Assembly (NCBI GenBank): GCA_947491305.1
Contig: CANLIL010000015.1
Span: forward strand, 1-50,351
Reading direction: 5' to 3'
Length of the DNA stretch: 50,351 nucleotides
DNA from: Flavobacteriales bacterium
Lineage (GTDB): Bacteria; Bacteroidota; Bacteroidia; Flavobacteriales_D; Crocinitomicaceae
Shown here: in pieces, positions 13 through 29,600 of the stretch
How positions within the stretch are numbered: the stretch's first letter is position 1
Layout: each line of letters opens with the position of its first letter
Notes under the pieces: generated by a model
What the model was told of the DNA's origin: nothing
Databases searched by the model: none
The model's input: the letters and a program-made list of their open reading frames with translations, nothing else
Translations under genes and position numbers: made by a program

Positions 13-1377
13 ATGGCTACTGAAACAACTAAAGGAACAAAAAAACAGCTTTCTTTTTGGCAAATTTGGAACATGAGTTTTGGATTCTTAGGAATTCAGA
101 TGGGGTTTGCCTTGCAAAATGGGAATGCAAGTAGAATATTAACGGATCTGGGTGCAAACGTAGAAAGCTTATCGTGGTTTTGGTTAGTAGCTCCTTTAAC
201 AGGTTTGATTGTTCAACCAATTATTGGCTATTGGAGCGATCGAACATGGTCGAAAAGATTTGGTAGAAGAAAACCGTTCTTTTTTGTAGGTGCATTGTTT
301 GCTTGTTTAGCATTAATCTTATTGCCAAATGCAGATAATTTCACGGCTTATTTCCCAGCGTTGCTAATTGGAGCAGGATTTTTAATGTTGATGGATGCTT
401 CTTTTAACGTTTCAATGGAACCATTTAGAGCACTGGTAGCAGACAATTTGCCGGATAATCAAAACACAAAAGGATTTTCTATTCAAACTGCATTGATTGG
501 TATTGGAGCGGTAGTCGGTTCGTTTATGCCTTGGATTTTAAACAATGTTTTCAATGTTCCAAACAATATTTCTGGTGTCAAAGTGCAACCAAATGTGATT
601 TATTCTTTCTACATCGGCGCAGCAATTTTTATGGGTGCTATCGTGTGGACAATCTTTAAAACGAAAGAATATTCACCTGAAGAACGCATTGAAATGGGCA
701 TTGTCAGTGAAGAAAAAACCAAAGAAAAATTTAAGATTCCAGCAACAATGTGGAAATTGGGATTGGTTCAGTTTTTCTCCTGGTTTGGTTTGTTTTGTAT
801 GTGGGTGTATACGACAACTGCTTTAAGAGAACACACCTATCTTTTGCCTACAATGGAAACTATTAAAGCAGGTTTAGCTTTAAATCCCTCAGATATTACC
901 TTGAAAAGCCAATTGAAGTTAAGCGAAGATTTGGGTGACTGGGTCGGTATTTTATTTGGAATTTACAATGGTGTCTCTGCTATTTTTGCGTTTTTTATTC
1001 CAATGATTGCACGAAAATTTGGAAGATCTAAAACACACGCTTTAGCACTTTTAATGGGTGGATTTGGTCTGGTTTTAATGTTCTTTATGCCAAATAAAAC
1101 GGCTATGATTTTTCCTATGCTGTTTATTGGGATTGCTTGGGCAAGTATTTTGGCAATGCCTTATGCAATGTTGGCGGGAGTAATTCCATCTGAAAGAATG
1201 GGTGTTTTTATGGGAATCTTCAACTTTTTCATCACCTTGCCACAAATTTTTAGCGCACTATTTTCAGGGCCAATCGTGAAACACCTGTTTGGCGGAAATG
1301 CTGCTTATGCACTAGTTATGGGCGGAATTTTTATGTTGTTTGCCTGTATTTTTACTTTAAGAATTAAAATTAAATAA
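13..1377 (+). CDS. MFS sugar transporter, GPH/SLC45-like, probable maltose importer
   Basis: Polytopic inner-membrane protein of 454 residues with about 12 hydrophobic segments. The loop after the second segment carries an SDR...FGRRKPF signature (residues ~75-89), typical of GPH/SLC45-type sugar symporters. The gap between the two six-helix halves lies around residues 215-240, and there is a longer charged loop at ~275-310. The substrate is inferred from context: the stop codon overlaps the start of beta-phosphoglucomutase by one base (TAATG), and maltose phosphorylase follows, so maltose or short maltodextrins are the likely cargo. Only 12 bases precede the ATG, so the promoter and any upstream operon members are outside the window. 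Family assignment is solid; substrate specificity is inference. Confidence 0.85.
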   Translation: MATETTKGTKKQLSFWQIWNMSFGFLGIQMGFALQNGNASRILTDLGANVESLSWFWLVAPLTGLIVQPIIGYWSDRTWSKRFGRRKPFFFVGALFACLALILLPNADNFTAYFPALLIGAGFLMLMDASFNVSMEPFRALVADNLPDNQNTKGFSIQTALIGIGAVVGSFMPWILNNVFNVPNNISGVKVQPNVIYSFYIGAAIFMGAIVWTIFKTKEYSPEERIEMGIVSEEKTKEKFKIPATMWKLGLVQFFSWFGLFCMWVYTTTALREHTYLLPTMETIKAGLALNPSDITLKSQLKLSEDLGDWVGILFGIYNGVSAIFAFFIPMIARKFGRSKTHALALLMGGFGLVLMFFMPNKTAMIFPMLFIGIAWASILAMPYAMLAGVIPSERMGVFMGIFNFFITLPQIFSALFSGPIVKHLFGGNAAYALVMGGIFMLFACIFTLRIKIK

Positions 1378-2018
1378 TGACAATCAAAGGATTAATTTTT
1401 GATTTAGATGGTGTTATTGTAAACACTGAACACAATCATTTTCTGTCGTGGAAAGCCATTGCAGATAAACTATCAATTTCATTTACAGAGAGAGAAAATG
1501 AACAATTAAAAGGTATTTCAAGAATCGATTCATTGAAAGTGCTTTTGAAAATGGGTAAAGTAGAAATTTCAACGAATGATTTCGACGCGCTTATCTTAGA
1601 AAAAAATGAACATTATTTAGCTTCGATTGCTGATTTGTCTGAAAAAGACATTTTACCGGGTGTAAAGGTTTTATTAGAAGATGCACAATCCAAAGGAATT
1701 AAAATGGCTATTGGATCTTCTAGTAAAAACGCACGTTTTATACTGAATCAACTAGGTTTAACAGATTATTTTGAAGCGATTATTGATGGCAATGGTGTTG
1801 CACATCCGAAACCACATCCCGAAGTATTTTTAAATGCAGCAAATGAGTTAGGACTTGAAATAGCAAATTGCATCGTATTTGAAGATGCAGAAAGTGGAAT
1901 AGAAGCTGCTTTGAAAGGTGGTTTTTATGTTGTTGCAGTTGGGAACCCTCATGTTGCTGACCAAGCGTCAGAATTTATTCCATCGATGTTAGATTTTAAT
2001 GTAGAAGATTATGCTTAA
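1377..2018 (+). CDS. pgmB: Beta-phosphoglucomutase (HAD superfamily)
   Basis: Cytoplasmic HAD-fold phosphomutase of 213 residues, converting beta-glucose-1-phosphate to glucose-6-phosphate. Motif I is FDLDGVIVNTEH, with D9 as predicted nucleophile and D11 as acid/base. The GSSSKNARF segment (~115-123) is motif II, HPKPHPEVF supplies the motif III lysine, and EDAESGIEA supplies the acidic motif IV. The SSSKN stretch and the helical cap (~15-90) fit the beta-PGM subgroup better than generic phosphatases. Its start overlaps the transporter stop by one base and its 3' end overlaps the maltose phosphorylase gene by eight bases, so it is translationally coupled on both sides. It would consume the phosphorylase product. 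Confidence 0.93.
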   Translation: MTIKGLIFDLDGVIVNTEHNHFLSWKAIADKLSISFTERENEQLKGISRIDSLKVLLKMGKVEISTNDFDALILEKNEHYLASIADLSEKDILPGVKVLLEDAQSKGIKMAIGSSSKNARFILNQLGLTDYFEAIIDGNGVAHPKPHPEVFLNAANELGLEIANCIVFEDAESGIEAALKGGFYVVAVGNPHVADQASEFIPSMLDFNVEDYA

Positions 2019-4287
2019 TTTATTTGAAATAGACGAATGGAAATTAATCGAAAATAGTTTCGATCCTGCAAAACAAGAACAAGCAGAAAGCATATTTTCA
2101 ATTGGGAATGGATCTTTTGGTCAACGTGCTAATTTTGAAGAAGCGTATTCTGGAAAATCGCTGCAAGGAAGTTATGTTGGGGGCGTTTATTATCCAGATA
2201 AAACACGTGTTGGTTGGTGGAAAAATGGCTATCCAGAGTATTTCGCGAAAGTACTAAATGCAACAAATTGGATCGGAATATTCATCGAAATTGATGGCGT
2301 AAAATTGGATTTGGCAACGTGTCAAATAAAATCTTTTTACCGTGAATTGGACATGAAAACTAGTACGTTAACGCGTAAATTCAGAGTTCAATTATCGAAT
2401 AATAAAGAAATTGAAGTGGTTTCTGTTCGTTTCTGTTCGATGCATAACCAAGAAATTGCAGCGATACGTTATTCGATTACACCTTTAAATTTCTCTGGGA
2501 ATGTTTCCTTTACGCCTTATTTAGACGGCAATGTAACAAATGCAGATTCAAATTATGATGAAGTATTTTGGGAAGCGGATGCACATAGAGTAGGCGATCG
2601 CAAAGGCGTTGTAAGCGCTCGAACGAAAAAAACAAATTTCTTGACAGCAACTGCCATGCGTTTTTCTTTTTGGGAAAATGACCAATTAGTGGAAATTCAC
2701 CCCAATACAAAGGCTGAAACCTTATATGTTGATAATCATTTTGAACATTTTTTAAAGCAAGGCTCAACGTATACGTTGAAAAAATATGTAGCAGTTACAT
2801 CTACGATTAATCATTCGGAGTTTAATACTGTTGCTGCTGCAATCAATGAAGTAACAGATGCTTATCGCGCTGGATTCGATGCGATTTATGCAGATCATGT
2901 AAAAGCATGGGATGAAATATGGAAAAATGCAGATGTTAAAATTGAAGGTGACAAATCAGCGCAACAAGCAATCCGCTTTAATATTTTCCATTTGTACCAA
3001 ACGTACACAGGAAATAACGCCAAATTAAACATTGGACCAAAAGGGTTTACTGGTGAAAAATATGGTGGCGCAACTTATTGGGATACGGAAGCTTATTGCA
3101 TTCCTTTCTTCTTGAAAACAGCCCCACAAGCAGTATCCCGTCAGTTATTGAAATACCGTTACAATCAATTGGATAAAGCGATTGAAAATGCAGCTAAATT
3201 AGGATTTAAAGATGGCGCTGCTTTGTATCCAATGGTAACGATGAACGGCGAAGAATGTCACAACGAATGGGAAATTACTTTTGAAGAAATTCACCGTAAT
3301 GGCGCTATTGCTTTTGCCATTTACAATTACATTCGTCATACGGATGATTGGGAATATGTTGCTGATTTTGGCCGACATGTTTTAGTAGGAATTGCACGTT
3401 TTTGGGCGCAACGTTTCAACTGGTCAGGGGCCAAACAGCAATTTGTAATGTTAGGAGTTACGGGTCCAAATGAATACGAAAACAATGTTAACAATAACTG
3501 GTATACCAACTATTTAGCAAAATGGTGCTTGACTTTTACGCTGGAAGTGGAAGAGAAATTGAATCACAAATCACCTTTATTACGAAAAGGAGAACGTGAA
3601 GAATGGCTCAACATTATTGATAAAATCTATCTGCCAAAATTAGAAAACACGAATATCTTCTTGCAACAAGATAATTTCATGGATAAAGTGTTGATGAATG
3701 CGGATGAATTACCTGAAAACGAGCGTCCGATTAACCAACATTGGTCTTGGGATCGTATTTTGCGTTCAGTTTTTATCAAACAAGCGGATGTTTTACAAGG
3801 CGTTTACTTGTTTGAAGAGCAATTTTCAATGGATGAAATCAAGGATAATTTTAATTTCTATGAACCGAAAACAGTTCATGAATCGTCCCTTTCTCCTTGT
3901 ATTCATTCCATTTTAGCTGCAAAAATTGGCGATAAAGAACGCGCCTATAAATTGTATTTAAGAACTTCCCGCTTGGATCTAGATGATTACAACCGCGAAG
4001 TAGCAGAAGGTTTGCATATCACAAGTATGGCAGGAACTTGGATGAGTATTGTGGAAGGAATGGCAGGAATTCGTGTGACGGAAAGTGGTTTAGAAATGAA
4101 CCCAATTATCCCAACGCAATGGAAATCATATACGTTTAATATTTTCTATAAAAACCAACCATTAACCATTTCAATTGGAAGTGAGATAACAATTGAAAAT
4201 AAAGGAGATAAAGCGATTACGCTAGATGTTTATAAACAAAGCATTAATTTTAATATTGGGGAGAAAAAAGTAATTGAGATGAGGTAA
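2011..4287 (+). CDS. GH65 family glycoside phosphorylase, probable maltose phosphorylase
   Basis: Cytoplasmic enzyme of 758 residues, the usual size for GH65 phosphorylases. It has an N-terminal super-sandwich (~1-290), an (alpha/alpha)6 catalytic barrel and a small C-terminal beta domain. The block NGEECHNEWEITFEEIHRNG (~412-431) contains the general-acid glutamate. GPNEYENNVNNNWYTN and the GLHITSMAGTW segment near residue 670 are further family signatures. The expected reaction is maltose plus phosphate giving glucose plus beta-glucose-1-phosphate, which pgmB, overlapping by eight bases, would use next. Relatives with kojibiose or trehalose specificity share this fold; the amylase neighbours favour maltose. 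No signal peptide is visible, consistent with intracellular phosphorolysis. Confidence 0.9.
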   Translation: MLNLFEIDEWKLIENSFDPAKQEQAESIFSIGNGSFGQRANFEEAYSGKSLQGSYVGGVYYPDKTRVGWWKNGYPEYFAKVLNATNWIGIFIEIDGVKLDLATCQIKSFYRELDMKTSTLTRKFRVQLSNNKEIEVVSVRFCSMHNQEIAAIRYSITPLNFSGNVSFTPYLDGNVTNADSNYDEVFWEADAHRVGDRKGVVSARTKKTNFLTATAMRFSFWENDQLVEIHPNTKAETLYVDNHFEHFLKQGSTYTLKKYVAVTSTINHSEFNTVAAAINEVTDAYRAGFDAIYADHVKAWDEIWKNADVKIEGDKSAQQAIRFNIFHLYQTYTGNNAKLNIGPKGFTGEKYGGATYWDTEAYCIPFFLKTAPQAVSRQLLKYRYNQLDKAIENAAKLGFKDGAALYPMVTMNGEECHNEWEITFEEIHRNGAIAFAIYNYIRHTDDWEYVADFGRHVLVGIARFWAQRFNWSGAKQQFVMLGVTGPNEYENNVNNNWYTNYLAKWCLTFTLEVEEKLNHKSPLLRKGEREEWLNIIDKIYLPKLENTNIFLQQDNFMDKVLMNADELPENERPINQHWSWDRILRSVFIKQADVLQGVYLFEEQFSMDEIKDNFNFYEPKTVHESSLSPCIHSILAAKIGDKERAYKLYLRTSRLDLDDYNREVAEGLHITSMAGTWMSIVEGMAGIRVTESGLEMNPIIPTQWKSYTFNIFYKNQPLTISIGSEITIENKGDKAITLDVYKQSINFNIGEKKVIEMR

Positions 4288-4304: not shown

Positions 4305-6632
4305 ATGAGATTAAAACTAGCTATTATACTGTTGTTTTTTATAGTTGCTCTTGCAAACAATGAAAACTTAGCACAGATAAATAATCCAAAAAAACAAGTT
4401 GTTCTTGAAGGTTTTTGGTGGGATTATTGGAATTCAAATTATCCGAACAAGTGGGCAAATTATTTAGTTGAGCTAGCTCCTAGATTAAAGCAACTTGGAA
4501 TTGATGCTGTCTGGATTCCTCCTACTATCAAAAATAGTGGAACAAATAGTGTGGGTTATTCTCCTTTTGATCAGTATGATTTAGGAGATAAGTTCCAGAA
4601 AAATTCTTTACCAACAAGAGTTGGGGATAAAGATGAATTACTTCGTTTAATTGCTGTTTTAAAAGCAAATGGCATTGATGTTATACAAGACATTGTTCTA
4701 AATCACGTTTCAAATGCTGGAAGTGCTACAGGTCAGGGTGGGGTTGATCTAACAGCTATTGATGATGGTGCTACTGCAAAATATAAAAATTTCAGGTATG
4801 CATGTTATAAAACTCCTGCTCAAAACGAATCCGCGCTAAATTATTTGGCACGTCAAGGTCGTTTTCCAAAGAATTGGCAAAATTTTTATCCGAATAATAA
4901 CAATGTTTGTTGTTCAAACGACATCAATTCACCTTTTTGGGGCCCAGACATTTCATACGAAAGCACTGCTTTTGGATTGAGTAGTAATGCAACTTTTAAT
5001 CCTGCTCAATCAGCTGATTACATGCGAAATGGCATTCGAAATTGGATGATTTGGTATAAAAAACAAGTAGGTTTCGACGGTGTAAGAATGGACGCTGTAA
5101 AACATTTTCCTGCTTATGTTTCTGAAGATGTTCTGTGGAACTTACAATTTGGCTCATTGTGGGCGAGTGGAGGCAATGACATGTATGCAGTTGGTGAATG
5201 GGTTGGTGGAGCTAATGAATTAGATAATTGGGCAAATGCAGTTCAAAATAGAGCAGGAACTTTTGATTTTTCTCTAAGAAATGCTTTAACAGGAATAATA
5301 TCAGGCAATGGAAATTATAATTTAGGGAATGTTCCAGCTGCACAACAATCTAATAGAGAACGAACGGTCCCGTTTGTTAACAATCATGACACCTACAGAC
5401 CAATATTAAGCGCAAGTGGTAATTATACTGGTTGGAATTCAGGTTCTCAATTAGGAACTCAAATAGAACCGAATGACCCAAGAAGTAGTGTTGTACATGC
5501 CATTGCTTTTGCAGTAGATGGCGCTCCTCAACTATTCTTCGAAGATTTATTTAACATTGGATACAATGGAAACAGGTTCAATCATCACCCATCTAATCCG
5601 CAAGAATTACCAACCTTTAGTGATGTTGAAAATATTGTTTGGTGTCATCAAAATTTACATTTCAAAGATGGAAGCTACCTTGTAAGATGGCAAGCAAATG
5701 ATGCATTGGTAATTGAACGTTCATCAAAAGCAATCATAGCAGTAACAGATAATTATTCAGTTTGGCAAAATTTAACGGGCGTTCAAACAAGCTGGTCGGA
5801 TGGAACGGTTTTAAAAGATTATTCTGGCGCGCATGGTAACGCATCGGTGATAGTCTATGGCGGTGGAAAAATAGACATTTCAATACCTCCATGTAATGGA
5901 ACAGCTCAAGAGGGCAGAAAAGGCTATTGTATTTACGCGCCAGATGGTATGCAAACAAATTACTTAAGACCATCAAAAACTACGGTTCAAGAATGGGAAA
6001 TGTCTGATGATTTAGGGGATTCTCATACAAACTCTTTACAGCAAGGCGGCGCTTTGCCTTCAAATAGTTTAGATTGTAGAGTTGTTGGGAGGGTTTATGC
6101 GCAACAAGGTGAACAAATAAAAGTAGAAGTTTATCCAGAGTCTTCATTAAATGGCGTTGTATTATCATTTGTAGATAAAGCGTGTGATTTAATTGATTCG
6201 TCTTTTTCCATTGGAAATTTTTCCGATTCTATTGTAGCAAGTTATACAGGATGGTATACCATAAAAATTAAAAATTTAACAGCGACGCAAGCAACTCAAA
6301 AATGTTGGATTAAAGCCATTTATAAAGCCCCTGCAAGTGTTACTGAAAATGGGGTGAAAAATAAATGTGCGTGTTCAAAATCTTCAACAGCTTCCTTAAT
6401 TGAAACATCAAATAGCTTGTTTAAAATTTACCCAAATCCTGTATTGAATCAATTGTATGTTGATATAGACGAAATATTAATTGGCCAGCCTTGGGAAATT
6501 TATAGCATCGAAGGTAAGTTGATACATAATGGAGTTTTTGATGCATCTTCAACGCGTATTGATCTGGTAAATCTAAACAAGGGTTCTTATTTCATTAAAA
6601 TCAATCAATCTATAATTTTGTTTGTTAAATAA
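4305..6632 (+). CDS. Secreted GH13 alpha-amylase with T9SS sorting domain
   Basis: Exported amylase of 775 residues. A signal peptide ends near residue 24 (LAQ), followed by a GH13 barrel. All four conserved regions are intact: DIVLNH (129-134), GVRMDAVKH with nucleophile D263, GEW with acid/base E298, and NNHD with D362. A C-terminal sheet domain (~to 510), an uncharacterised beta-rich region (~530-690) and a T9SS type A sorting domain (IYPNP near residue 708, running to the LFVK end) follow. It should be secreted through the outer membrane and bound to the surface or released, cutting starch to maltodextrins. It lies 17 bases after the maltose phosphorylase gene, so it is likely in the same transcript. 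Three cysteines near the barrel insertion (~200) may pair. Confidence 0.93.
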   Translation: MRLKLAIILLFFIVALANNENLAQINNPKKQVVLEGFWWDYWNSNYPNKWANYLVELAPRLKQLGIDAVWIPPTIKNSGTNSVGYSPFDQYDLGDKFQKNSLPTRVGDKDELLRLIAVLKANGIDVIQDIVLNHVSNAGSATGQGGVDLTAIDDGATAKYKNFRYACYKTPAQNESALNYLARQGRFPKNWQNFYPNNNNVCCSNDINSPFWGPDISYESTAFGLSSNATFNPAQSADYMRNGIRNWMIWYKKQVGFDGVRMDAVKHFPAYVSEDVLWNLQFGSLWASGGNDMYAVGEWVGGANELDNWANAVQNRAGTFDFSLRNALTGIISGNGNYNLGNVPAAQQSNRERTVPFVNNHDTYRPILSASGNYTGWNSGSQLGTQIEPNDPRSSVVHAIAFAVDGAPQLFFEDLFNIGYNGNRFNHHPSNPQELPTFSDVENIVWCHQNLHFKDGSYLVRWQANDALVIERSSKAIIAVTDNYSVWQNLTGVQTSWSDGTVLKDYSGAHGNASVIVYGGGKIDISIPPCNGTAQEGRKGYCIYAPDGMQTNYLRPSKTTVQEWEMSDDLGDSHTNSLQQGGALPSNSLDCRVVGRVYAQQGEQIKVEVYPESSLNGVVLSFVDKACDLIDSSFSIGNFSDSIVASYTGWYTIKIKNLTATQATQKCWIKAIYKAPASVTENGVKNKCACSKSSTASLIETSNSLFKIYPNPVLNQLYVDIDEILIGQPWEIYSIEGKLIHNGVFDASSTRIDLVNLNKGSYFIKINQSIILFVK

Positions 6633-6676: not shown

Positions 6677-9436
6677 ATGAAAAAATTATTTTTTTTATCT
6701 CTGATATGTTATTTTAATGGCTTCTACTCTCAAAATGCACTAGTTGGAACAGGCTTCGCTGCTGGTTGGGGTTGGGGTTGTAATCAAAACCATCAATTTT
6801 CCTATTTCGGATCTTCAGCAGGAACAAGTTTTATTTTAACTAAAAACGGGAATGGAACGGGTGATCAATACTTTAGATTAGGAATAGATTTTTCTGGCAC
6901 AGTCGCTCAAAACACCATAAATGTTGGTAGTGATGTACAACTAAGTTTAGGAACGGAATATAATTTAAATAGTACGTGTACTACAAGTGGCGCGATGTTT
7001 CTTAACGTGAGCAGTACAGCCCATAATTATGTGTTTAAAACTGAAAACGCGGGCACTAATCCAAGTCGTAAACTAATCGTTTTTTGTGTACAAGGAGCGG
7101 TTGCAACAATCAATAGTGTTTCAAGAAATTTTAATGCTGTAGCAGCAAGTCAATCACCAACAATATCTGCAACAATATCTGCCCCATTAAACACTGGGCA
7201 AGGAATCTATTTGAGATACACAACCGATAATTTTGCAACTTCTACAATCGTTCAAATGACGGGTGCGGCCTCAACATACAGTGCTTCTATCCCATCTTTC
7301 GCTTCAGGCACGAATGTTAAATATTATGTTTTTTCTTCTGGAAATGGATTAACAATCAACCATAGTAAAGCAGATTGGTACACCATTAATTTAAATAGTA
7401 ATAGTGGATCAAATTATTCATATACAGTAAGTCCAACGCAATACCAAGCTGTTAATTCAGGGAATTGGTCTAGCTTATCAAATTGGCAATCAGGTAACGG
7501 AACAGACTGGAGTGCTGCAGCTTCGTTACCAACAAATACAAGTGGTTCAATAAAAGTTAATTCGGGTGTAACCATTAGTTTAGACAATTCAATTACGTTA
7601 AATTCGCTCGAAAATAACGGGGTTTTAAATGCAAATGATAAAACAATTACAATAGCTAACAACGGGAGTTTTACCAATAATGGAACGTTTAATGCAGGAA
7701 CTGGTTCACTAATATTTTCAGGAAATAATTCGGTAAGTGGTACAGTAAGCTTTAATACCGTTCAAGTTAACGGAAATTTAGCATTACCAAATTCTATTAC
7801 CATTAATGGGGAATTAATTTTAAATACTTCCGCATACCTTTCAGGTTTCGCCCCTTTTTATGGCGCTTCGTCTAAACTAAAATATAATTCAGGTGGAAAT
7901 TATGGCAGAAATCTTGAATGGTCAGCTGCGTCTGGTGCGGGGTTCCCAAATGATGTCCAAATTTCAAACAACACGTCACTCGATTTGCCGAATTCATCAT
8001 TAAATGTTAGTTCATCCTATAGTATTTCTAGAGATCTAATAATTGATGCAAATTCAGCATTGTATATGGATTTTGGCGCAGGCAGTAATTCTGGCAGTTT
8101 AATAATTGGAAGAAATCTATCCATTGCTGGCAATCTTTCTTTTGGAGATGGTGTAGGTGGAGATGTAATTTTAAAAGGAAACTGGCTGCATTCTACAGGA
8201 ACGATTAATTTTAACAATAGGGCGCTTTTATTGACAGGGACAACAAATCAAACAATTGGAAATCCATCAACGGAAACATTCCAATTTTTATTTGTTAATA
8301 AATCAAATGGACTTGTTCAATTGAATACGAATGTAATCGTTAATTCTAAATTAACATTAACGGCTGGAAATATTGAATTGAATAGTTCAAATTTGACAAT
8401 TGGTCAAAGTGCTATTATTGAAGGATATTCTGCATCTAGTTATATATCAACTAATTCAACTGGAAAATTAATTCAAAATGGAATTACTTCGGGTTCTACA
8501 GCTGGTAAAACTTTTTTCCCAATTGGCCATGGATCTACTTATTCACCGTGTATTATAAATAATTCGGGAACCATGGATGATTTTTCAGTGAGTGTTAATA
8601 ACACCTTATTATCAAATGGAACAAGTGGAACTTCATTGAGTGCTAACAATGTAAATAAAACGTGGTTTATAGATGAAGCAATCATTGGGAATTCTTACGT
8701 TAATTTGACAGTTTTTTGGAATGTTTTAGACGAAGCAAGTTCGTTTTCAAATCAATCAGCATATATTTCACACTATCAATCTGGTAGTTGGGATAATTTT
8801 TCTAATGCTGTTGCAACCAATTCAAATGGATTATATCAACTAAGCAGAGCTGGGATTGTTTCATTCTCTCCTTTTGGCGTATTTGGCTCATCTAATTTAC
8901 CTGTAGAGCTTATTGAATTTAAAGCTACGTGTACGGATGAAGAATCAGTCGAGGTAAATTGGTCTACAGCTAGTGAATTTAATGCGAGTCATTTCATTCT
9001 AAAACATTCACGAGATGCTTTGTATTGGACTGATTTGAATCAACAACAAGCAGCTGGAAACTCAACAGAAACACAATTTTATAAGTATACTGAAAATGGT
9101 ATCGATAATGAAATTAATTACTATTTACTAGAGCAACACGATGTAAATGGGCAAGTGAAAAAATATGGACCTATTAGTTTAATGTGTTCGTTGACGGATA
9201 ATGAAATTGGTTTTTACCCAAACCCAACGAATGGAAATTTGTGCATTAAGAATTTGAATGATTTAACTACAAATTTTTCTGTTTACGATTTAAATGGAAT
9301 TCGTTTATACACTAATTTCTTAGCACCTAATTCGGTAAATAACCTTGAATTAGGAATTAAAGATGGCACATACGTAATAGAGTTTATTGGTGAAAACGGG
9401 GAAAAAACCTCGAAAATTTTACAGATTATTCAATAA
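6677..9436 (+). CDS. Large secreted T9SS cargo protein of unknown function in the glucan locus
   Basis: Protein of 919 residues with a signal peptide ending at YSQ (~19). The N-terminal ~130 residues are rich in Trp, Gly and Asn and look like a binding domain. A second beta-sandwich-like unit (~155-245) has aromatic residues and TTDNF and WYTINL motifs, reminiscent of carbohydrate-binding modules. Residues ~260-680 are a long run of Asn/Gly/Ser/Thr-rich short repeats (such as NNGSFTNNGTFNAGTG) suggesting a beta-helix or adhesin stalk. The LPVELIEFKA segment (~750) starts a domain common just before T9SS tails, and the end (FYPNPTNGN onward) is a type A sorting domain. It lies 44 bases after the amylase gene. 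The predicted role is glucan binding or adhesion at the surface; I recognise no catalytic motif. Confidence 0.75.
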   Translation: MKKLFFLSLICYFNGFYSQNALVGTGFAAGWGWGCNQNHQFSYFGSSAGTSFILTKNGNGTGDQYFRLGIDFSGTVAQNTINVGSDVQLSLGTEYNLNSTCTTSGAMFLNVSSTAHNYVFKTENAGTNPSRKLIVFCVQGAVATINSVSRNFNAVAASQSPTISATISAPLNTGQGIYLRYTTDNFATSTIVQMTGAASTYSASIPSFASGTNVKYYVFSSGNGLTINHSKADWYTINLNSNSGSNYSYTVSPTQYQAVNSGNWSSLSNWQSGNGTDWSAAASLPTNTSGSIKVNSGVTISLDNSITLNSLENNGVLNANDKTITIANNGSFTNNGTFNAGTGSLIFSGNNSVSGTVSFNTVQVNGNLALPNSITINGELILNTSAYLSGFAPFYGASSKLKYNSGGNYGRNLEWSAASGAGFPNDVQISNNTSLDLPNSSLNVSSSYSISRDLIIDANSALYMDFGAGSNSGSLIIGRNLSIAGNLSFGDGVGGDVILKGNWLHSTGTINFNNRALLLTGTTNQTIGNPSTETFQFLFVNKSNGLVQLNTNVIVNSKLTLTAGNIELNSSNLTIGQSAIIEGYSASSYISTNSTGKLIQNGITSGSTAGKTFFPIGHGSTYSPCIINNSGTMDDFSVSVNNTLLSNGTSGTSLSANNVNKTWFIDEAIIGNSYVNLTVFWNVLDEASSFSNQSAYISHYQSGSWDNFSNAVATNSNGLYQLSRAGIVSFSPFGVFGSSNLPVELIEFKATCTDEESVEVNWSTASEFNASHFILKHSRDALYWTDLNQQQAAGNSTETQFYKYTENGIDNEINYYLLEQHDVNGQVKKYGPISLMCSLTDNEIGFYPNPTNGNLCIKNLNDLTTNFSVYDLNGIRLYTNFLAPNSVNNLELGIKDGTYVIEFIGENGEKTSKILQIIQ

Positions 9437-12188
9437 TAATTTCTTTACTTGAAAAGCCTCTTTCAGTTTCAATTAATACGATATACGTTCCTTTTTGCAT
9501 ACCAGAAACAGAAATTGTTTCCTTGAAATTACTTACATTTTTGTAATTCATTTCGCGCGCTATTTTCCCTGAAAGATCTATTATTTTAATGGATAATCGA
9601 TCTAATTCTTCAGAAGGAATTGCAATGGTTAATTGATCGGATGCTGGAACAGGGTAAACAGAGAATTTAAATGCATTTGCTGTAAGTTCTTCGTAACCAA
9701 CGGTATTGATAATCGTTGGTTTTTGTTGTTTAACAGAGGTGTAAATGCGGTATTCTGCAGGCTTGAAAGTCAACGATGCTGAAGACTGTGTTAATGTAAT
9801 ACTATCTCCTGTGAAATATTCATACCATGTTCCTGTAGATGGAAATGCAACTGTTGAAGTTGTGTTTTGGACAGAGAAATTTCCGGCTATTACAACATTC
9901 ATCGAAGTATGTAAATAGGTCATTTTTTTCAAAGTTCCTGACAAAGAATATTGAAAAGTTCCATTTTTAAATACTTCATTATTTAAACGTAAGTCTAAAG
10001 TTGCTTTGTAAACATCGTATAATTGTCTTCTGTTATTGTCTAAATAATAATTCCATAAAATTGGTTTGTTACAAACGCGACAACCTAAATTAATACTTTT
10101 GTCGTAGCCTAATTCTCCAAATTGCCAAATCATTTTTGGCCCTGGTGTTGTCAGCATTATGACAGCTGCTGCTTGCGCTCGTAACAGTGCAACCGGTAAG
10201 TAGCGAACATTGTGAGCAGGGTTAGTTTGAACGCCAAAAGTCAAAGATTCATACATTCCTCGTTCTTCATCGTGGCTTTCAATATAAGTAACTAAATGAT
10301 TTTTTGTCCATGAACGAGAAGCGGCAACACCATTGGAAAAATTACTGCTATTCCCCTTCATCGCTCGGAGGTATTCATAATTTAAATTCCCCCATAATAA
10401 CATGCCATATTCAGCTAATATCTTTTCTTCGGCATTGTCTGCCCAATGCTCTAAAATGATATAAGTGGAGGGATTTACAGCCCATAAGGTATCTGCAATT
10501 CGTTTTAAAATATTAATTCGTGTAGTACTGTTGCCGGAAGCTGAATTAACAAATCCTTTGGTGTAATCCAAACGGTACCCATCAATATGGAATTCATCCA
10601 TCCAATAAAGCAATACACGATCTACATAGTCTTTAGTCGCTTGTACTTGGTGATTCAAATCATAGCCCCAACAATATGGTTCGTGTGGACAAATAGCATT
10701 AAACCATGGACTATTTGCTGCGGGTCTGTTATTTGTTGCGTCCCAATACATATTAACCATTGGGTTTTGCCCAAATGCATGATTTAATGCAATATCATTA
10801 ATGACGGCAATTCCTCGAGCATGACACGCATCAACAAATGCTTTAAAATGTTCTGGTGTTCCGTAATATTTATCTAAAGCCATATGGAAACTTGGATTGT
10901 ATCCCCAGCTTTCATTGTTCTCAAATTCATTGATTGGCATCAATTCAATGGCATTAATCCCTAAACTATCTAAATAATCTAAGGTATCAATCATTGTTAA
11001 ATAATCGTGTTTTGCGACAAAATCACGGGGCAATAATTCATAGATCATTAACTCTGTTTTGTCAGGTTTGGTGTAATTGTCATTTTGCCAAGAAAAATTA
11101 GTAGGATTTGTTTCAAATAAACTAATAAAGCCCGATGTTTTTCCCGATGGATAAGTATAAGGATTCGGATAAGTAGTAGCGCTAATGTTGTTATCGTTAT
11201 TAGGATCTGCAATTAAATAACTCAAAGGATCCGCAACTTTTAAATTATTATCCATCAAAAATTGGTATCCATAACGCGTCGATGGCGTTAAGTTGGAAAC
11301 GGTAATCCACCATGTAGTAGAATCTAACGAAAGATGCATGTGATAATTTAAGGATGGTAAAAAATCATTGAAATCACCTAATAAGTATACGTGTTGTTTG
11401 TGTGGTGCAAATAACCTAATCGTTACGGTTGAATCATTTACATAGTTTAATCCGTTTTTGGTATTTGCCGGAGGATTTACAAAATTTACTGGAGGATTCA
11501 CAATGTAATTAATACTGTCAATAATTGTTTGAGTTCCGTTATTTACAACAAATTCTAGAAGGTGTTGCCCAGCTGTTGCAACGGTTAAATTATGTGCTAA
11601 TTGTGTGTTGTTAGTTACTGAAGCGATGGTAACTCCATTGTCTTTGATGCTTAGTTGAGCTGCTTGATTTGATTTTCCGAGTAATGGTAATTGATCACCA
11701 ATATTTACTAATTGAGCGCTTGTCGGGGCAAAGAATTTTCCTAACAAACCACTATTTGATGGATATACATCGTAGTAGATATCGCTTCCATCTGCGTTTC
11801 TTCCAACAATTGTTCCGGCTGCATTTCTAAATACAAAGGCTAATTTTTGAACGATTGTTCCAGCTGGATAACCATAAAATGTTCCTAAATTAATGGTGAT
11901 TTGGTGTAAATTATTCCCCAAACTCGTCATTAAAACAGTTGCATCTGCTGTTCCCCAAGCGCCTTTTACAAATTTCCAATCTGAAGCGGATGTACTGGCT
12001 GAAGTGATTAACCCAGCATGCATGTAAACAGGTGAAACGCCTGTAAGTGCTCCATTTCCCTCTGTTGCTTTATAAGTTATGGTTACAATATCTGTACTTG
12101 TTGGAAATGCAGGTGAAATATTCAGAATTTGAGCGAATGATTGAACTGAATTTGCAATTAAAAATAAAGTAAAAAGTAACTTTTTCAT
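9426..12188 (-). CDS. Secreted GH13 family enzyme with N-terminal binding modules and T9SS sorting domain
   Basis: Amylolytic enzyme of 920 residues. I start it at the ATG at 12188, which begins a clear signal peptide (MKKLLFTLFLIANSVQSFAQ). The in-frame start at 12227 would add 13 residues and run through a terminator hairpin. The N-terminal module (~20-145) resembles the adjacent 236-residue secreted protein. A CBM48-like early-set domain containing YLLGDFNDF (~270-360) precedes the GH13 barrel. Its four regions are intact: DIALNH (D465), GYRLDY (nucleophile D541), LEHW (acid/base E580) and ESHDE (D640). A type A sorting domain (YPVPASDQ onward) ends the protein. The CBM48-GH13 layout suggests a pullulanase, branching or maltogenic type of activity, but specificity cannot be read here. 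Its 3' end overlaps the convergent 919-residue gene by 11 bases. Confidence 0.9.
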   Translation of the reverse strand: MKKLLFTLFLIANSVQSFAQILNISPAFPTSTDIVTITYKATEGNGALTGVSPVYMHAGLITSASTSASDWKFVKGAWGTADATVLMTSLGNNLHQITINLGTFYGYPAGTIVQKLAFVFRNAAGTIVGRNADGSDIYYDVYPSNSGLLGKFFAPTSAQLVNIGDQLPLLGKSNQAAQLSIKDNGVTIASVTNNTQLAHNLTVATAGQHLLEFVVNNGTQTIIDSINYIVNPPVNFVNPPANTKNGLNYVNDSTVTIRLFAPHKQHVYLLGDFNDFLPSLNYHMHLSLDSTTWWITVSNLTPSTRYGYQFLMDNNLKVADPLSYLIADPNNDNNISATTYPNPYTYPSGKTSGFISLFETNPTNFSWQNDNYTKPDKTELMIYELLPRDFVAKHDYLTMIDTLDYLDSLGINAIELMPINEFENNESWGYNPSFHMALDKYYGTPEHFKAFVDACHARGIAVINDIALNHAFGQNPMVNMYWDATNNRPAANSPWFNAICPHEPYCWGYDLNHQVQATKDYVDRVLLYWMDEFHIDGYRLDYTKGFVNSASGNSTTRINILKRIADTLWAVNPSTYIILEHWADNAEEKILAEYGMLLWGNLNYEYLRAMKGNSSNFSNGVAASRSWTKNHLVTYIESHDEERGMYESLTFGVQTNPAHNVRYLPVALLRAQAAAVIMLTTPGPKMIWQFGELGYDKSINLGCRVCNKPILWNYYLDNNRRQLYDVYKATLDLRLNNEVFKNGTFQYSLSGTLKKMTYLHTSMNVVIAGNFSVQNTTSTVAFPSTGTWYEYFTGDSITLTQSSASLTFKPAEYRIYTSVKQQKPTIINTVGYEELTANAFKFSVYPVPASDQLTIAIPSEELDRLSIKIIDLSGKIAREMNYKNVSNFKETISVSGMQKGTYIVLIETERGFSSKEIIIE

Positions 12189-12210
12189 GAGCGAATTTTT
12201 TATTGTTGTA

Positions 12211-12240
12211 AAAAAAAGCCTAGACAAATGCCTAGGCTTT
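12211..12240 (-). terminator. Rho-independent terminator after the 236-residue secreted protein gene
   Basis: A perfect nine-base inverted repeat (AAAGCCTAG at 12215-12223, CTAGGCTTT at 12232-12240) is followed, on the minus strand, by a T-run (the A-run at 12211-12217 on plus). It lies between the two minus-strand glucan genes, so the upstream small gene can be transcribed alone, with the GH13 gene reached by read-through or by another promoter. Confidence 0.85.
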
Positions 12241-12259
12241 CCGTATTTTAAATGAAAAA

Positions 12260-12970
12260 TTATTTTTTCATTAATTTTCCTGTAGCTACTTTATCACCTG
12301 AAGCGATAGAGTAGATGTAAGAACCTGAAGTTAAGTTTTCAGTAGCAACTGTTACTTTTTCAACTCCTGTTGTAGTAGAAACTAATTTACCTGACAAGTC
12401 AAATAAAGATACTGTAGCTTCTGTTCCAGCAGCAAATGTGAAGTTTGTAGAAACTTCTGTTGGATTTGGAGCAACTGAAAAGTTCAATGTAGTTTCTTCA
12501 ACACCCAATTCTGCAAAATAAACAACGAAATCTGTACAAGTCGAATCAGCATTAAATCCTTTTCCCTCATTATCCCAAGGTCCTGTTGCACCATTAGCAG
12601 CTGCATTTAATACAAATTTAAATCCTAATAGAGGAGCAGTTACATTGTAGTATGTACTTGGGTTAAATGTACCAGAGAAAATTCCATTTCCATCGTTCGT
12701 TAACTGAATTGCATTCGTACCATTCCAATCAACACCATTAGCCCATCCTCCTGGAGTTAACATAGCGCCTGAATGAAAACCAATTGAAGTCCAAGTTGGA
12801 TCAATCTCTTTTCCTGCTGGTGAACAAATCATAGATACATCAACTGTAATTGTGATATCAGATGTTCCATCAGTTGTAATTGGAGAAATTGTAACTCCAG
12901 GCATGACAGATTGCGAAAACGCAGTAGCACCAAAAATTAATGCTGCACATAAAGTAAAGATTTTTTTCAT
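12260..12970 (-). CDS. Small secreted T9SS cargo protein, putative glucan-binding module
   Basis: Exported protein of 236 residues: signal peptide (to AFS, ~19), one beta-rich domain (~20-155) and a type A sorting domain starting at FSVAPNPTEV and ending KLMKK. The domain resembles the N-terminal module of the GH13 enzyme encoded downstream. Both have an ISP...ITIT opening, a (M/F)H(A/S)G segment, a GxG/GNN turn, a TFY/YYN-type strand, then (F/V)xxNAA-G and a closing D-(F/I)-(V/Y)-Y-(Y/F/D) strand. That likeness and the locus suggest a stand-alone starch-binding protein at the cell surface, but no binding residues can be assigned. It has two cysteines in the mature domain. A strong terminator follows, so its level may exceed that of the downstream enzyme. 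Confidence 0.8.
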   Translation of the reverse strand: MKKIFTLCAALIFGATAFSQSVMPGVTISPITTDGTSDITITVDVSMICSPAGKEIDPTWTSIGFHSGAMLTPGGWANGVDWNGTNAIQLTNDGNGIFSGTFNPSTYYNVTAPLLGFKFVLNAAANGATGPWDNEGKGFNADSTCTDFVVYFAELGVEETTLNFSVAPNPTEVSTNFTFAAGTEATVSLFDLSGKLVSTTTGVEKVTVATENLTSGSYIYSIASGDKVATGKLMKK

Positions 12971-23687: not shown

Positions 23688-26600
23688 ATGAAGAATTTAG
23701 TATATAAGGGGATTACAAATGGCATACTTTTTATTGCATTTTTTAATGTGATAATTGGTAATGTATTTGCTCAAGACACCCTTATATATCCTATTCAAAA
23801 CTCTAATGACCCAACTCAAACACAGCCTCAAAGTTTTGATTTGGGCGATCCAAAATCTGTCAAACAAACCATTGTTTATGACCCGACAACTGGAACATAT
23901 ATCTTTAGAGAAACAATTGGCAACAACTTAGATTTTAGAAATCCTTCAATGATGACGCTTGAAGAATACATAGAATATGAGCGTAAAAAAGCGTTGCGTC
24001 AAAATTGGAAAGATAAAATAAAACAAGAAACAGCAAAAGCACAACCGCTTGAGTTTCCGATTAAAATTGGCAGTAAATTATTTGAGAATTTCTTCGGTTC
24101 CGATCAAATTACGATTCGTCCTCAAGGCTCCATTGAACTTTCTTTTGGGGTCAATTCAAGTCGTTACGACAACCCCATTCTTCCGGTTAAACAAAGAAAT
24201 GTGACACGTTTTGATTTTCAGCAACAAATTCAAATGAGTTTGGTTGGACAAATTGGAACAAAAATGAAATTGGGTCTAACTTACAACACGCAAGCTGCCT
24301 TTGAATTTGACAATGTTACCAAATTAGAATACACGGGTAATGAAGATCAAATAGTTCAGAAAATTGAATTAGGGAATGTCGCATTATCACTGCCAACGAG
24401 TTTAATTCAAGGTTCTCAAACATTATTTGGGGCCAAAACACAACTTAAATTTGGTAATTCAACCATTGATTTGATTGCAGCATCTTCAAAAGGAAAACGT
24501 CAAGAAATCAATATCACAGGGAAAGCACAAACACAGCGCTTCGAATTAGGAGCAGACAATTACGAAGCTAATCGCCATTATTTTGTGAATTTATACCACC
24601 ACGATCATTACGACGAAGCAATGTCAACGGTTCCAATTGTTAATTCTCAAGCTTATATCACTAGAATGGAAGTTTGGTTAACCAACCGAACGAGTAAAAC
24701 AGAAGACACTAGAAATATTATTGCATTTTCTGATTTAGGAGAAGCAAAGGCGCAAAATTGTCAAGGAAATCCTGGCGGCTTTGCAAGTTCTGAAATGCCT
24801 TCAAATGACGCAAATAATTTGTATGAATGGGCATCAAGTCAACCATTAGTCAGAGGGTTTAACAATGCTGTTTCAGTTTTAAGCAATCAAGTTGCAGCAC
24901 CAGGACCATTTCAACAGGCTATTGAATACGAGAAAGTAGAAAACGCTCGTAGGTTAACCGAACAAGAGTATTCTTACAATGCATTATTGGGATATGTTTC
25001 ATTAAACCAACCCTTGAACAATGATGAAGTTTTGGCGGTTTCGTATGAATATACATACCGAGGAGAAACCTATCAAGTGGGGGAGTTTTCCACAGATGGA
25101 ATTGCTGGTCAGCAGGCATTAATTATGAAATTAATTAAACCAACCATAACCAATCCTAAAAATAAAGTTTGGGATCTGATGATGAAAAATGTTTATTCAA
25201 TTGGTGCTTATCAAGTTGATCAAACAGGATTTAGAATTGATTTATTATACAACAATCCAGAAACTTCTTTGGCAGTTCCTTTTTTCCCCGTAACAGGTTT
25301 AGATGACAAACAATTGGTTACAGTCTTAGAAATGGACCGTTTAAATCAAAATAATCAACCATTTTCAGATGGAGTGTTTGATTTTGTTCCAATAGCACTA
25401 AATGGAAATAAAGCAGAAAATGGCGGTACAATAAATACCAAAAATGGCCGTGTTTATTTTTCAACAATCGAACCATTTGGTAAAACATTGCGCAAAAAGT
25501 TAGAAGAGGTGAATATGCCGGCTTTGGTGATTAATCAAGTTGTATTCACTGAATTATATGATTCTACAAAAACAGCAGCTCAACAGATTCCTAGTAAAAA
25601 TCGTTTTATATTTAAAGGAGAATACCAATCTTCAGTAACTTCAGATATTCCATTAAATGCATTGAATGTTCCACAAGGAGCGGTTACTGTAACAGCTGGA
25701 GGTATAAAGTTAACAGAAGGAACAGATTTCACTGTAGATTACAATTTAGGGCGTGTAAAAATATTGAATTCAGGGATTTTAGAATCAAATACACCTATTA
25801 AAATTTCTGTTGAAAGTAATTCCGTCTTTGGTTTTCAAGCGCGTTCATTATTTGGAGCACGCTATAATTACCGTTTCAACCCTAATTTTAATATAGGAGC
25901 AACGTGGGTGTTGATGAATGAACGCCCTGTGACTCAAAAAGTTGACATTGGAAGCGAGCCGTTTAGAAACAATATGATTGGGTTCGATTTGGCTTACAAA
26001 ACAGATGTGCCATTTTTGACCAAATTAGTGGACTTTTTACCTGTTATTTCTACAACAGAAAAATCCACTGTTTCATTTAAAGGTGAGTTTGCACATTTAA
26101 TTCCTGGTCAACCTGCTGCAATTGGAAATTCTGGAACTTCCTACATCGATGATTTTGAAGGCTCTCAAAGTGCAATTGATTTGAAATCGTTCACTTCTTG
26201 GCGTTTAGCTTCTATTCCTCAAGGTCAGCCATCTTTATTTCCTGAAGCAACAAAAAAAGATTTAGTTGCTGGATTTAGAAGAGCTAAAACAGCTTGGTAT
26301 TCAATTGATCCATTATTTTATCAAAATAATTCCTTTACACCTCAACACATTATAGATGATCCTTCTATGTTGTCTGATAGTAGAATGCGCTTGGTGAACC
26401 AAGTGGATATTTTCCCTAATTTGCAACAACAATATGGGTCTATCCCCAACATTACAGTGCTTGATTTAGCGTATTATCCGAAAGAACGTGGGATGTATAA
26501 TTACGACACCACAAATACCTATGATGCAGAAGGAAAATTTATAAATCCTGAAAATCGTTGGGGTGGAATTATGCGCTCTTTAACAACGAACGATTTTGAA

Positions 26601-29600
26601 CAGTCGAATATTGAATTTGTTCAATTTTGGGTATTAGATCCATTCAATCAAGACGCAGAAAATGTAAATCCAAATACGCCCCACAACGGTGGAGATTTGT
26701 ATTTTAATTTTGGTAATATTTCAGAAGATATTTTACCAGATTCACGTAAAAGTTTTGAAAATGGTTTGCCCCCAACAGGAAGTTCTATTACAGATAACAT
26801 CGACACAACTGCCTGGGCAAGAATATCAACACAACAAGTCGTTGTAAATGCATTTGATACAGACCCAAATTCTAGAATAAATCAAGATGTTGGGTTAGAC
26901 GGTTGGAATAATGCACAAGAAAAAACAGCGCATCAAAATTATGTAAATTGGGTTCAGAATAATACAACGTTATCTGCTGACGCTAAAGCGCGAATGATTG
27001 CCGATCCTTCCAACGATGATTACAATTTTTACCGAGATGATACGTACGACGCTTCAAAAGCAACAATCTTAGAACGCTACAAAAAATACAACGGGATGCA
27101 AGGAAATTCTCCTACAACCGAAATGTCTGATACGGCCAATGCTGACGCTTATTCTACGCAAGGTACTAATGTGCCAGATATTGAAGATATTAATCAAGAC
27201 AACAATTTATCGGAGTCTGAAAGCTATTTTCAGTATAAGATAAGTATGCGTCCAAATGACATGCAAGTTGGCAAAAACTACATCACTAATGTTCAAACGT
27301 TCCAAACTGGCAATAAAACTGAAAAATGGTATCAATTCAAAGTTCCTTTAAGCGACTATAATTTAAAAGTCAATGGGATTCAAGATTTTAGATCGATTCG
27401 TTTTATGCGGATGTTCTTAAAAGATTTTGATGAAGAAGTTTTATTGCGCTTTGCACGTTTGGAATTAATAAGAGGTGAATGGAGAAGATTTCTAGAAGAC
27501 TTAACTCAGCCAGGAGAAAGTGTTCAAGGTGATCCAAATTTAACACAATTCAACATTGCAGCAGTTAACGTTGAAGAAAACGATCAGCGTTCGCCTATCA
27601 AGTATGAAATTCCTCCAGGTATCATTCGTGAAGTAGATCCATCTCAAACGTATCAACGCCAGTTGAATGAACAATCATTGGTATTGGATATTTGCAATTT
27701 ACAAGATGGTGATGCACGAGCTGCCTACAAAAATGTGCAGTTTGATGTGCGTACCTACAAGAAATTAAAAATGTTTGTTCACGCAGAAGAAGTTCAACCT
27801 TCAATTCCACTTAAAAATAAAGATTTGACTTTATTTGTTCGAATGGGGACAGATTTTAAGGACAATTATTATGAATATGAATTGCCTTTGAACAGAACAG
27901 AATGGGGTGCAACAGTTGCAGAAGACATTTGGCCAGAAGCCAACAATGTTGAAATTGTATTTGATAACCTTTTGAATTTAAAAAAGAAACGAAATGAGCT
28001 AATCGAAGCTGGAAATGGAACTGTTTCCTATGTCGTTGAATATGCGGCAACTGATCCTGAAAACAGCAATCGAAAAATTAAAGTGAAAGGAAGTCCGAAT
28101 TTACAAGGATTGAAAACAATTATGATCGGTGTTCGAAACCCAAGTAAAAATTCAAATACAACTTGGCCTGATGACGGTGAAGCTGACTGTGCAATTGTTT
28201 GGGTGAATGAATTGCGTCTAACAGACTTTATTTCTGAAGGAGGCTCTGCAGCAACGGCACAAATGCAAGTTCAATTAGCAGATTTTGCGAACGTAAATAT
28301 GTCTGGAAATTATTCAGGTGTCAATTGGGGGAGTGTAGAAAGTAGAGTACAAGATCGCCAAAGAAATCAGAAAATTGGTTTTGATATGAATGCAAGTATG
28401 CAATTAGGTCAATTTTTTGGTAAAAAATCAAGCGTTTCATTACCATTTTTCTATGCTTATTCATTAGGAATAATTAACCCAGAATATGATCCGTTTAATC
28501 CAGATGTTAAATTGGCAGATTATGATGGTGCTACTTATTCAAATCGTGCTAAAGCAGGTCAAGATTTTACAGAACGTAAATCTTATAATTTTTCAAATGT
28601 TCGTAAAGAGTTAAAAGCAGGTGCAACACCTTATTTTTGGAGAATCTCCAATTTTTCCACAACGTATTCTTATGCTGAAACAATGCATAGAGATTTTAAT
28701 ACCAACTATGATCGAACCAAAACGTGGAACAATACATTGAATTATAATTATTCATTCACTGCAAAACCAATCGAGCCGTTTAAAAAATTAAAATTTGTAC
28801 AAAAAAATAAATGGCTGACATTTATCAAAGATTTCAATTTATTTTTAACACCTAAAAACATTTCATTTACAAATGATGTCATTCGTTCTTACAATGAACG
28901 CCAAGTTCGAAACAACTTAGTGCCAGGTTTTGAATTCAATCCTGTTTATGTCAAACGATTTAATTGGAATCGCGTTTATGCTATTGGGTATGATTTAACC
29001 AAAAATTTAAAGGCTACATTTAGCGCAACGAATCGTTCAATTTTTGAAGAAGGTGATGGAAGAGTAGACAAAGATGCGGATCCGCTTTTATACCAAGCAT
29101 TTTTAGATACAATTCGCAAGCAATCCATGACATTAGGTAAAACAATGGATTACACACATAGTTATAATGTAAGTTACAACCTTCCATTGGATAAATTTCC
29201 GATTACAAATTGGATGACTGGGAATATAAAATATGGTGGAACATACAATTGGCAACGCGCTCCTTTGGGTCAAAATCAATTTGGGAATACGATACAAAAC
29301 AATCGAACAGTTGGGTTCACAGGGCAAATGAATTTTATGACTTTGTATAATAAAGTACCCTTATTTAAAAAAGTATTGGCAAGTAATAATAAGCCACAAA
29401 GGGGAAAACCGGATTCAAATGAAGTTGGAGGAAGAAATACGAACGCAAATGCTGAAAAAAACAAACCTAAAGCGAAAGTATTCAATTTAAAACCACCGAA
29501 ACCGATCGAGCAAATGACGGAAGAAGAAAAGGTGAAATGGGAAAAATACTATGCAAAAATGGAACGTCGTTTTGAGCGTAAAAAAAGAAGAGAAGAACGA

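Follow-up and report, generated by a model that had tools for sequence, protein, structure and literature searches.

Within a 50,351-nucleotide stretch of a Flavobacteriales bacterium (Crocinitomicaceae; contig CANLIL010000015.1 of assembly GCA_947491305.1), which spans contig G000:C15 in full (genome size, 2.53 Mb) and is called the window here, a gene encoding a secreted protein of 236 amino acids is followed, after a gap of 71 bases, by the gene of a GH13 amylase of 920 amino acids. The smaller protein probably (at roughly 70%, by our own estimate) captures alpha-glucans after export through the type IX secretion system (T9SS), being built around a diverged, stand-alone core of the CBM98 type and serving as a stand-in for SusE/SusF with an exchangeable core. 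This reading rests on computed evidence, i.e., homology of the core to the N-terminal module of the enzyme, a T9SS tail, a recurrent position upstream of the enzyme gene, a hairpin between the two genes, and replacement of the core in relatives. An earlier note on this DNA had proposed that the two proteins share a module and that the free copy captures starch at the surface; that interpretation is partly supported, since its direction was right, and the exchange of cores between relatives was absent from it. Both proteins lie where it had placed them, with a corrected start for the enzyme: ATG 12188 (920 amino acids) is the most likely start codon of the GH13 gene, rather than TTG 12227, because the closest relatives start there and the extra 39 bases reach into the hairpin.

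The 236-amino-acid protein consists of a signal peptide (recognized by eye), a core of ~135 residues, and a type A T9SS tail. As expected for a type A T9SS cargo, the tail matches TIGR04183 above its cut-off (E 2.9e-14) and the translocon protein SprA is encoded in the same window, in line with the delivery route suggested previously. Scanned with Pfam and NCBIfam, the free protein falls in no other family; in place of a lipobox cysteine (none seen by eye) it carries this tail, suggesting a location at the cell surface. C49 and C145 are invariant in six free cores, but the invariant columns of the enzyme modules do not include them; they possibly form a disulfide peculiar to the free form.

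At the family level, distant homology between the free core and the N-terminal module of the neighbouring enzyme is secure; for the window pair taken alone, the case made by the sequences is indirect. BLASTP proved too weak to decide on the two window proteins, the best relevant piece having an E of 0.72 and including the signal peptide. Comparison of five free cores with 53 enzyme modules by hhalign gave a probability of 97.2% over 115 columns, end to end, and the same five cores reached only 15.9% against an X25-like core, 3.8% against a SusE/F-like core, 0.7% against the T9SS tail and 0.1% against CBM48. A repeat with MAFFT alignments (A7, 5 cores; A4, 14 modules) gave 96.5% (E 9e-10, 96 columns), the two remaining core kinds giving 11.0% and 4.7%, and addition of a sixth free core, L062 (from genome G120; genomes, loci and families are cited by our labels G, L and f), raised the value to 98.0% (E 3e-13, 85 columns). 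The shared module claimed earlier is thus recovered at 96.5-98%, as opposed to 0.1-16% for unrelated profiles, and its landmarks (ISP..ITIT, H-(S/A)-G, the FV..NAA turn and the last D-x-x-Y strand) are aligned; the limits given for it in the GH13 protein, residues ~20-145, fit the 920-residue numbering. The aligned counterparts of H66, G68, W76, W82 and Y108 in the free protein are H70, G72, W84, W91 and Y118 in the enzyme (933-residue numbering), all invariant in both alignments; as the aligner itself made this pairing, its permutation p is optimistic.

Profile searches agree with these comparisons. A six-core profile found matches in 106 of 399 whole genomes of the order, which by open-frame length are mostly this enzyme, ~290-residue proteins or free copies, and its second match in the genome of the window is the module of the enzyme (E 6.5e-10). 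Without L062, the five-core profile matched 35 places in 31 of 149 relatives; five are the cores themselves, and the remaining 30 comprise 22 enzyme modules, five ~280-residue proteins encoded next to SusD and three others. In its own genome, the enzyme module of the window is the sole other match of this profile. Within a local set of open reading frames (ORFs) from the fetched loci, a hidden Markov model (HMM) of the five cores detected 19 of the 56 enzyme proteins that the module HMM detects (best E 3.5e-7; enzyme of the window, 0.044), the enzyme-module HMM detected the free protein of G069 (6e-9), and a third HMM, built from the first domains of four SusD-neighbour proteins, detected the free protein of the window (3e-6). 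L062 itself matches the enzyme modules at 98.5% (hhalign).

The enzyme-attached module belongs to CBM98 and the free one is CBM98-like, which gives a name to what the earlier note regarded as a module with no named family: the copy in the enzyme is a CBM98 in a CBM98-CBM48-GH13 architecture. Searched against PDB sequences, a profile of 14 enzyme modules matched the N-terminus of BoGH13ASus (8dl1/8dge, E 4e-6), and the C-terminal part of PF16328 (DUF4961) matches all 14. BoGH13ASus was described as carrying two N-terminal modules, a CBM98, which binds malto-oligosaccharides, and a CBM48, which does not (PMC11633381). The comparison of predicted structures that had been suggested as a check points the same way: in a Foldseek search of 350,542 PDB chains, AlphaFold models of both regions had BoGH13ASus chains as their best match (probability 1.00; other rows shown, at most 0.60). 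By VIA-align, the free core gave Z 8.8 on BoGH13ASus residues ~47-167 (110 residues, 3.4 A; next unrelated row, 6.1) and the enzyme module Z 9.1 on residues ~48-170 (next unrelated row, 5.6), values moderately above the best Z of 7 to 8 usual for models with no clear match; rows with Z below 8 (complement C5, CBM56 and others) were not used. The invariant H, G, W, W and Y are also present in the BoCBM98 stretch. For the enzyme module, both the sequence and the fold of the founding module are matched; for the free core, the fold is matched in a rough model, and its tie to CBM98 in sequence runs solely via the enzyme modules of relatives. The free core is termed CBM98-like because a direct sequence match to the founding module is absent. 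By analogy with BoCBM98, both modules of the window would bind malto-oligosaccharides or glucans.

Several observations weigh against this assignment and against the role proposed for the protein. Sequence identity between free core and enzyme module is low, and both models are rough and of moderate confidence (free core: pLDDT 67, pTM 0.66, from an alignment of two sequences; enzyme module: pLDDT 60, pTM 0.54, from four). The free-core profile did not find BoGH13ASus among PDB sequences, nor anything credible, its best hits being antibody light chains, and DUF4961 matches one of six free cores, weakly (E 0.064). The six-core scan and the 98.0% hhalign result lean on the intermediate core L062, which alone has no direct match to the five other free cores (7.5%, hhalign); when it is left out, the enzyme module of the window is matched at E 0.0089 only. 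In the local ORF set, the free protein of the window is absent from the list of the enzyme-module HMM. Furthermore, all 23 genomes of families f4, f5 and f9 have a different gene in front of the enzyme, and the gene is missing in one of the two f8 genomes.

The position of the gene recurs in relatives. The enzyme is present in 51 of 149 relatives, and the upstream gene was read in all 51. A gene for signal peptide, core and T9SS tail lies upstream of the enzyme in 21/21 genomes of f1, 5/5 of f3 and 1/2 of f8, i.e., in 27 of the 28 genomes of these families. The cores of these 27 proteins, assigned by eye in agreement with HMM hits, comprise five of the kind found in the window (A), one of the L062 kind, four SusE/F-like (B; PF16411), 12 X25-like (C), four B plus C, and one repeated B. 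PF16411 matches 7/8 B cores. The X25 pullulanase domain matches 5/8 C cores weakly (best E 1.5e-4) and is below the Pfam cut-off in proteins scanned whole; core C aligns with the enzyme module at 89% over 51 columns (hhalign) and may be a still more distant relative of it. Against PDB sequences, the X25-like core profile had nothing significant, and the SusE/F-like core profile a single hit, a surface glycan-binding protein, which is not significant (E 0.54).

In 17 of the 23 f4, f5 and f9 genomes (16 by HMM; G131 from the ORF list), a ~280-residue protein with such modules is encoded in the same locus (L032-L034, L036, L037, L060, L061, L064, L066-L074); in the five of these loci that were read, its gene comes after a same-strand SusD-like gene. 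By eye, these proteins have a type I signal peptide, and many carry a cysteine close to the C-terminus. In f4 and f9, the enzyme gene is usually preceded by one for a long secreted protein (L065-L067, L069, L072, L073, L075, L079, L081-L083) that appears CotH-like by eye. Additionally, second, larger proteins of 1164-1283 residues open with the same N-terminal module (L071, 5207-9058; L078, 599-4435; L080, 1425-4919), those of L071 and L078 being encoded directly upstream of the first enzyme.

These relatives also point to an exchange of cores. On a tree of the 27 enzymes, built with the N-terminal module left out, core kind changes eight times, as compared to a minimum of five and a shuffled mean of 14.0. 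One clade (support 100/100) unites the window with G025 and G016, and core kinds A, B and C all occur within it: the three enzymes share 91-94% amino acid identity and the signal peptides all 60 bases, and identity at the aligned residues of the cores, where gaps are many, is 24-34%. Compared with G059 and G040, which belong to another genus, G025 shows amino acid identities of 62 and 64% in the enzyme, 80 and 80% in the signal peptide, 89 and 87% in the core, and 90 and 87% in the tail. A transfer of core and tail from one genus to another is evident here. Between G084 and G040, the enzyme is 90% identical, the tail 96% and the core 64%. The DNA of the window and G016 is 100% identical in the signal peptide, 95% in the tail and 86% in the enzyme; this likeness of the frame is no proof of recombination, as strong selection on an abundant protein could suffice. 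The genomes compared are draft or metagenome assemblies; misassembly is unlikely to have caused the differing cores, because B and C recur in several genomes each beside the same flanking enzyme. Tentatively, and at somewhat less than even odds, the locus can be regarded as an exchange slot, i.e., an export frame of signal peptide and T9SS tail, upstream of the amylase, in which quite unlike and putatively glucan-binding cores (CBM98-like, SusE/F-like, X25-like and tandem) are replaced by recombination between species and genera.

As an alternative to replacement in place, the differing cores could be old duplicates followed by differential loss, which we hold to be unlikely, though core A behaves as descent predicts: between the window and G069, the core is 65% and the enzyme 62% identical, with tails at 44%, which speaks against exchange for that core. 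Duplication and loss are opposed by the comparison of G025 with G059 and G040, in which core identity exceeds that of enzyme and signal peptide. A further point against them, which also leaves paralogues within a genome unsupported as a source of exchanged cores, is that of six genomes, five have the signal-peptide pattern a single time and the sixth (G017) lacks it, and that tail matches outside this locus are distant (identity at most 39%). That the resemblance between free core and enzyme module reflects two unrelated beta-sandwiches is hardly credible; pairwise identity is low and BLASTP finds little, yet when the profile without L062 was run over 149 genomes, 27 of its 30 non-self matches were the enzyme module or the SusD-neighbour proteins, control profiles are negative, and both models pick the same domain from the entire set of PDB chains.

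Two further explanations accept the module and give the protein another task. It could be a partner that docks to the enzyme or to SusC/SusD and aids assembly of a surface complex, capturing no glucan itself, for which its fixed position beside the enzyme would speak. We consider this improbable, as the replacing cores belong to kinds that bind glucan or accompany amylases (SusE/F, X25), a docking surface is unlikely to survive a swap for unrelated domains, and the W and Y residues are kept. It is very improbable that the protein is a surface protein under pressure from phages or other selection, whose cores are swapped to alter identity with an incidental link to the amylase: the rapid replacement among closely related genomes would fit, whereas all replacing cores are kin to starch-related domains and the gene stands beside the amylase in nearly every genome of its families. 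Glucan capture in the place of SusE/SusF remains the preferred reading.

SusE and SusF are lipoproteins encoded next to SusD. SusD matches were found in 31/31 genomes tested, and lack of SusC/SusD in the genome of the window was ruled out, since a SusC/SusD pair lies on contig C28 beside GH31 and GH13 proteins; its SusD is thus on another contig than the free protein. In f1 loci, no same-strand gene of at least 120 amino acids directly follows SusD in 11/11 read (of 21). At E 0.01, SusF_SusE was found in 8/25 genomes, with six of nine matches in the gene upstream of the enzyme and three elsewhere; above the cut-off, it was found in 3/25, each time in that gene, and SusE (PF14292) exceeded its cut-off in 0/25. 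One of these genes, at the same position in G025 (same genus), has the SusF_SusE domain at E 3.9e-7, above the Pfam cut-off, which bears out the SusE/F-like place suggested by the earlier note; in the window, the protein has neither a SusF_SusE nor a SusE domain, and its genome has no match. Pfam sensitivity is incomplete, as the B core of G059 was missed by the genome search. A SusE/F-like role is proposed because of gene position and the B cores of sister genomes, and by this analogy the free protein would occupy the place expected of SusE/F.

Of 25 testable loci, 24 have a terminator-like hairpin in the gap that separates the two genes, as compared to 0.22 expected by shuffling that kept base content and not dinucleotide content (L058 was cut to 110 bases, and two gaps were too short). 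Its stem is palindromic and its T tract lies on the - strand. The hairpin is possibly an attenuator that sets the ratio of binder to enzyme, and would fit a binding protein made in excess over the enzyme. In the proposed scheme, the core would bind starch or glycogen, the T9SS tail would place the protein outside the cell, and the free protein, which the hairpin would allow to be in excess, would hold the polymer near the amylases and SusC/SusD, next to an enzyme that bears the orthodox CBM98 ahead of its CBM48 and GH13 domains. The core would change as different glucans, or surface pressures such as phages, favour different binders.

Table 1. Positions of the two genes, their parts and neighbouring genes in the window.
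Feature	Positions	Strand	Evidence
236-residue secreted protein with free CBM98-like core	12260..12970	-	ORF; same-position homologues in relatives
Signal peptide, 20 codons	12911..12970	-	By eye; all 60 bases identical in G016 and G025
CBM98-like core, residues 21-155	12506..12910	-	Profile comparison, genome scans, structure search
Type A T9SS sorting domain, residues 166-236	12263..12475	-	TIGR04183 E 2.9e-14; PF18962 E 1.5e-8
Terminator-like hairpin and T tract between both genes (putative attenuator)	12215..12240	-	
920-residue enzyme: CBM98 - CBM48 - GH13 - T9SS tail	9426..12188	-	
Enzyme-attached CBM98 module (Pfam DUF4961, C-terminal part)	11748..12131	-	PF16328 E 8e-10
CBM48 of enzyme	11247..11453	-	PF02922 E 6e-8
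Stretch matched by solved amylases (CBM48 and GH13 domains)	9735..11459	-	8xx9 E 8e-149; PF00128 E 1.7e-19
T9SS sorting domain of enzyme	9432..9659	-	PF18962 E 6e-13
Second alpha-amylase, T9SS tail	4305..6632	+	
MFS sugar transporter, HAD protein, GH65	13..4287	+	Pfam
SprA, T9SS translocon protein	23688..31028	+	TIGR04189, 2416 bits

Along the enzyme, the N-terminal module precedes another Ig-like stretch (seen by eye), followed by CBM48, GH13 and the T9SS domain (Table 1). Among solved structures, it matches 8dge (BoGH13ASus) at E 4e-104; the match to the alpha-amylase 8xx9 (E 8e-149) begins past the N-terminal module and scores better. BoGH13ASus is a member of GH13 subfamily 47. Surrounding the two genes are the T9SS-tailed second amylase, a GH65 protein (presumably maltose-phosphorylase-like), a HAD protein (which we take to be beta-phosphoglucomutase-like) and the MFS transporter. 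At 6677-9436, a repetitive protein of 919 residues with a T9SS tail, beyond which a Pfam scan found no family above its cut-off, is encoded convergently with the end of the enzyme gene, overlapping it by 11 bases.

Among the closest known systems is the CBM98 of BoGH13ASus from Bacteroides ovatus (PDB 8DGE, 8DL1, 8DL2), which shares the fold, the conserved H-x-G, W, W and Y, and an alpha-glucan locus, the enzyme of the window having the same CBM98-CBM48-GH13 order; in B. ovatus, however, the module is part of a lipid-anchored enzyme, whereas the window adds a diverged copy as a separate T9SS cargo. Like SusE/SusF, the free protein is a putatively non-catalytic product of a starch locus, and sister genomes carry a SusF_SusE domain in the same gene; unlike them, it has another kind of core and a T9SS tail, and is encoded beside the amylase. 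Pfam DUF4961 proteins and the ~280-residue SusD-neighbour proteins of related families, encoded in loci of a similar type, bear such modules singly or in pairs, and differ in that the one tested (L034) has no T9SS tail. CHU_1279 of Cytophaga hutchinsonii was described as an SGBP-B-like (surface glycan-binding protein), outer-membrane, CBM-like glycan-capturing protein of an atypical polysaccharide utilization locus (PMC12016534); it differs in acting on cellulose and having two CBM-like domains, and the term 'T9SS' does not occur in that text. Within the open-licence literature, no report was found of a stand-alone T9SS form of the module or of the exchange of cores, which are new here in that scope, nor was a paper on DUF4961.

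Collectively, this evidence offers a likely answer to how starch is captured in flavobacterial SusC/SusD loci with no recognizable SusE/F, namely by a T9SS cargo. Stand-alone CBM98-like modules can now be set beside the enzyme-attached ones, which suggests a function for proteins of the DUF4961 type. If the exchange of cores holds true, the bacterium would retune alpha-glucan capture at its surface, or evade phages that use the core, while leaving the enzyme and SusC/SusD untouched. Very close relatives that differ in their binding core constitute a natural experiment, which makes it directly testable how the core affects the choice of substrate.

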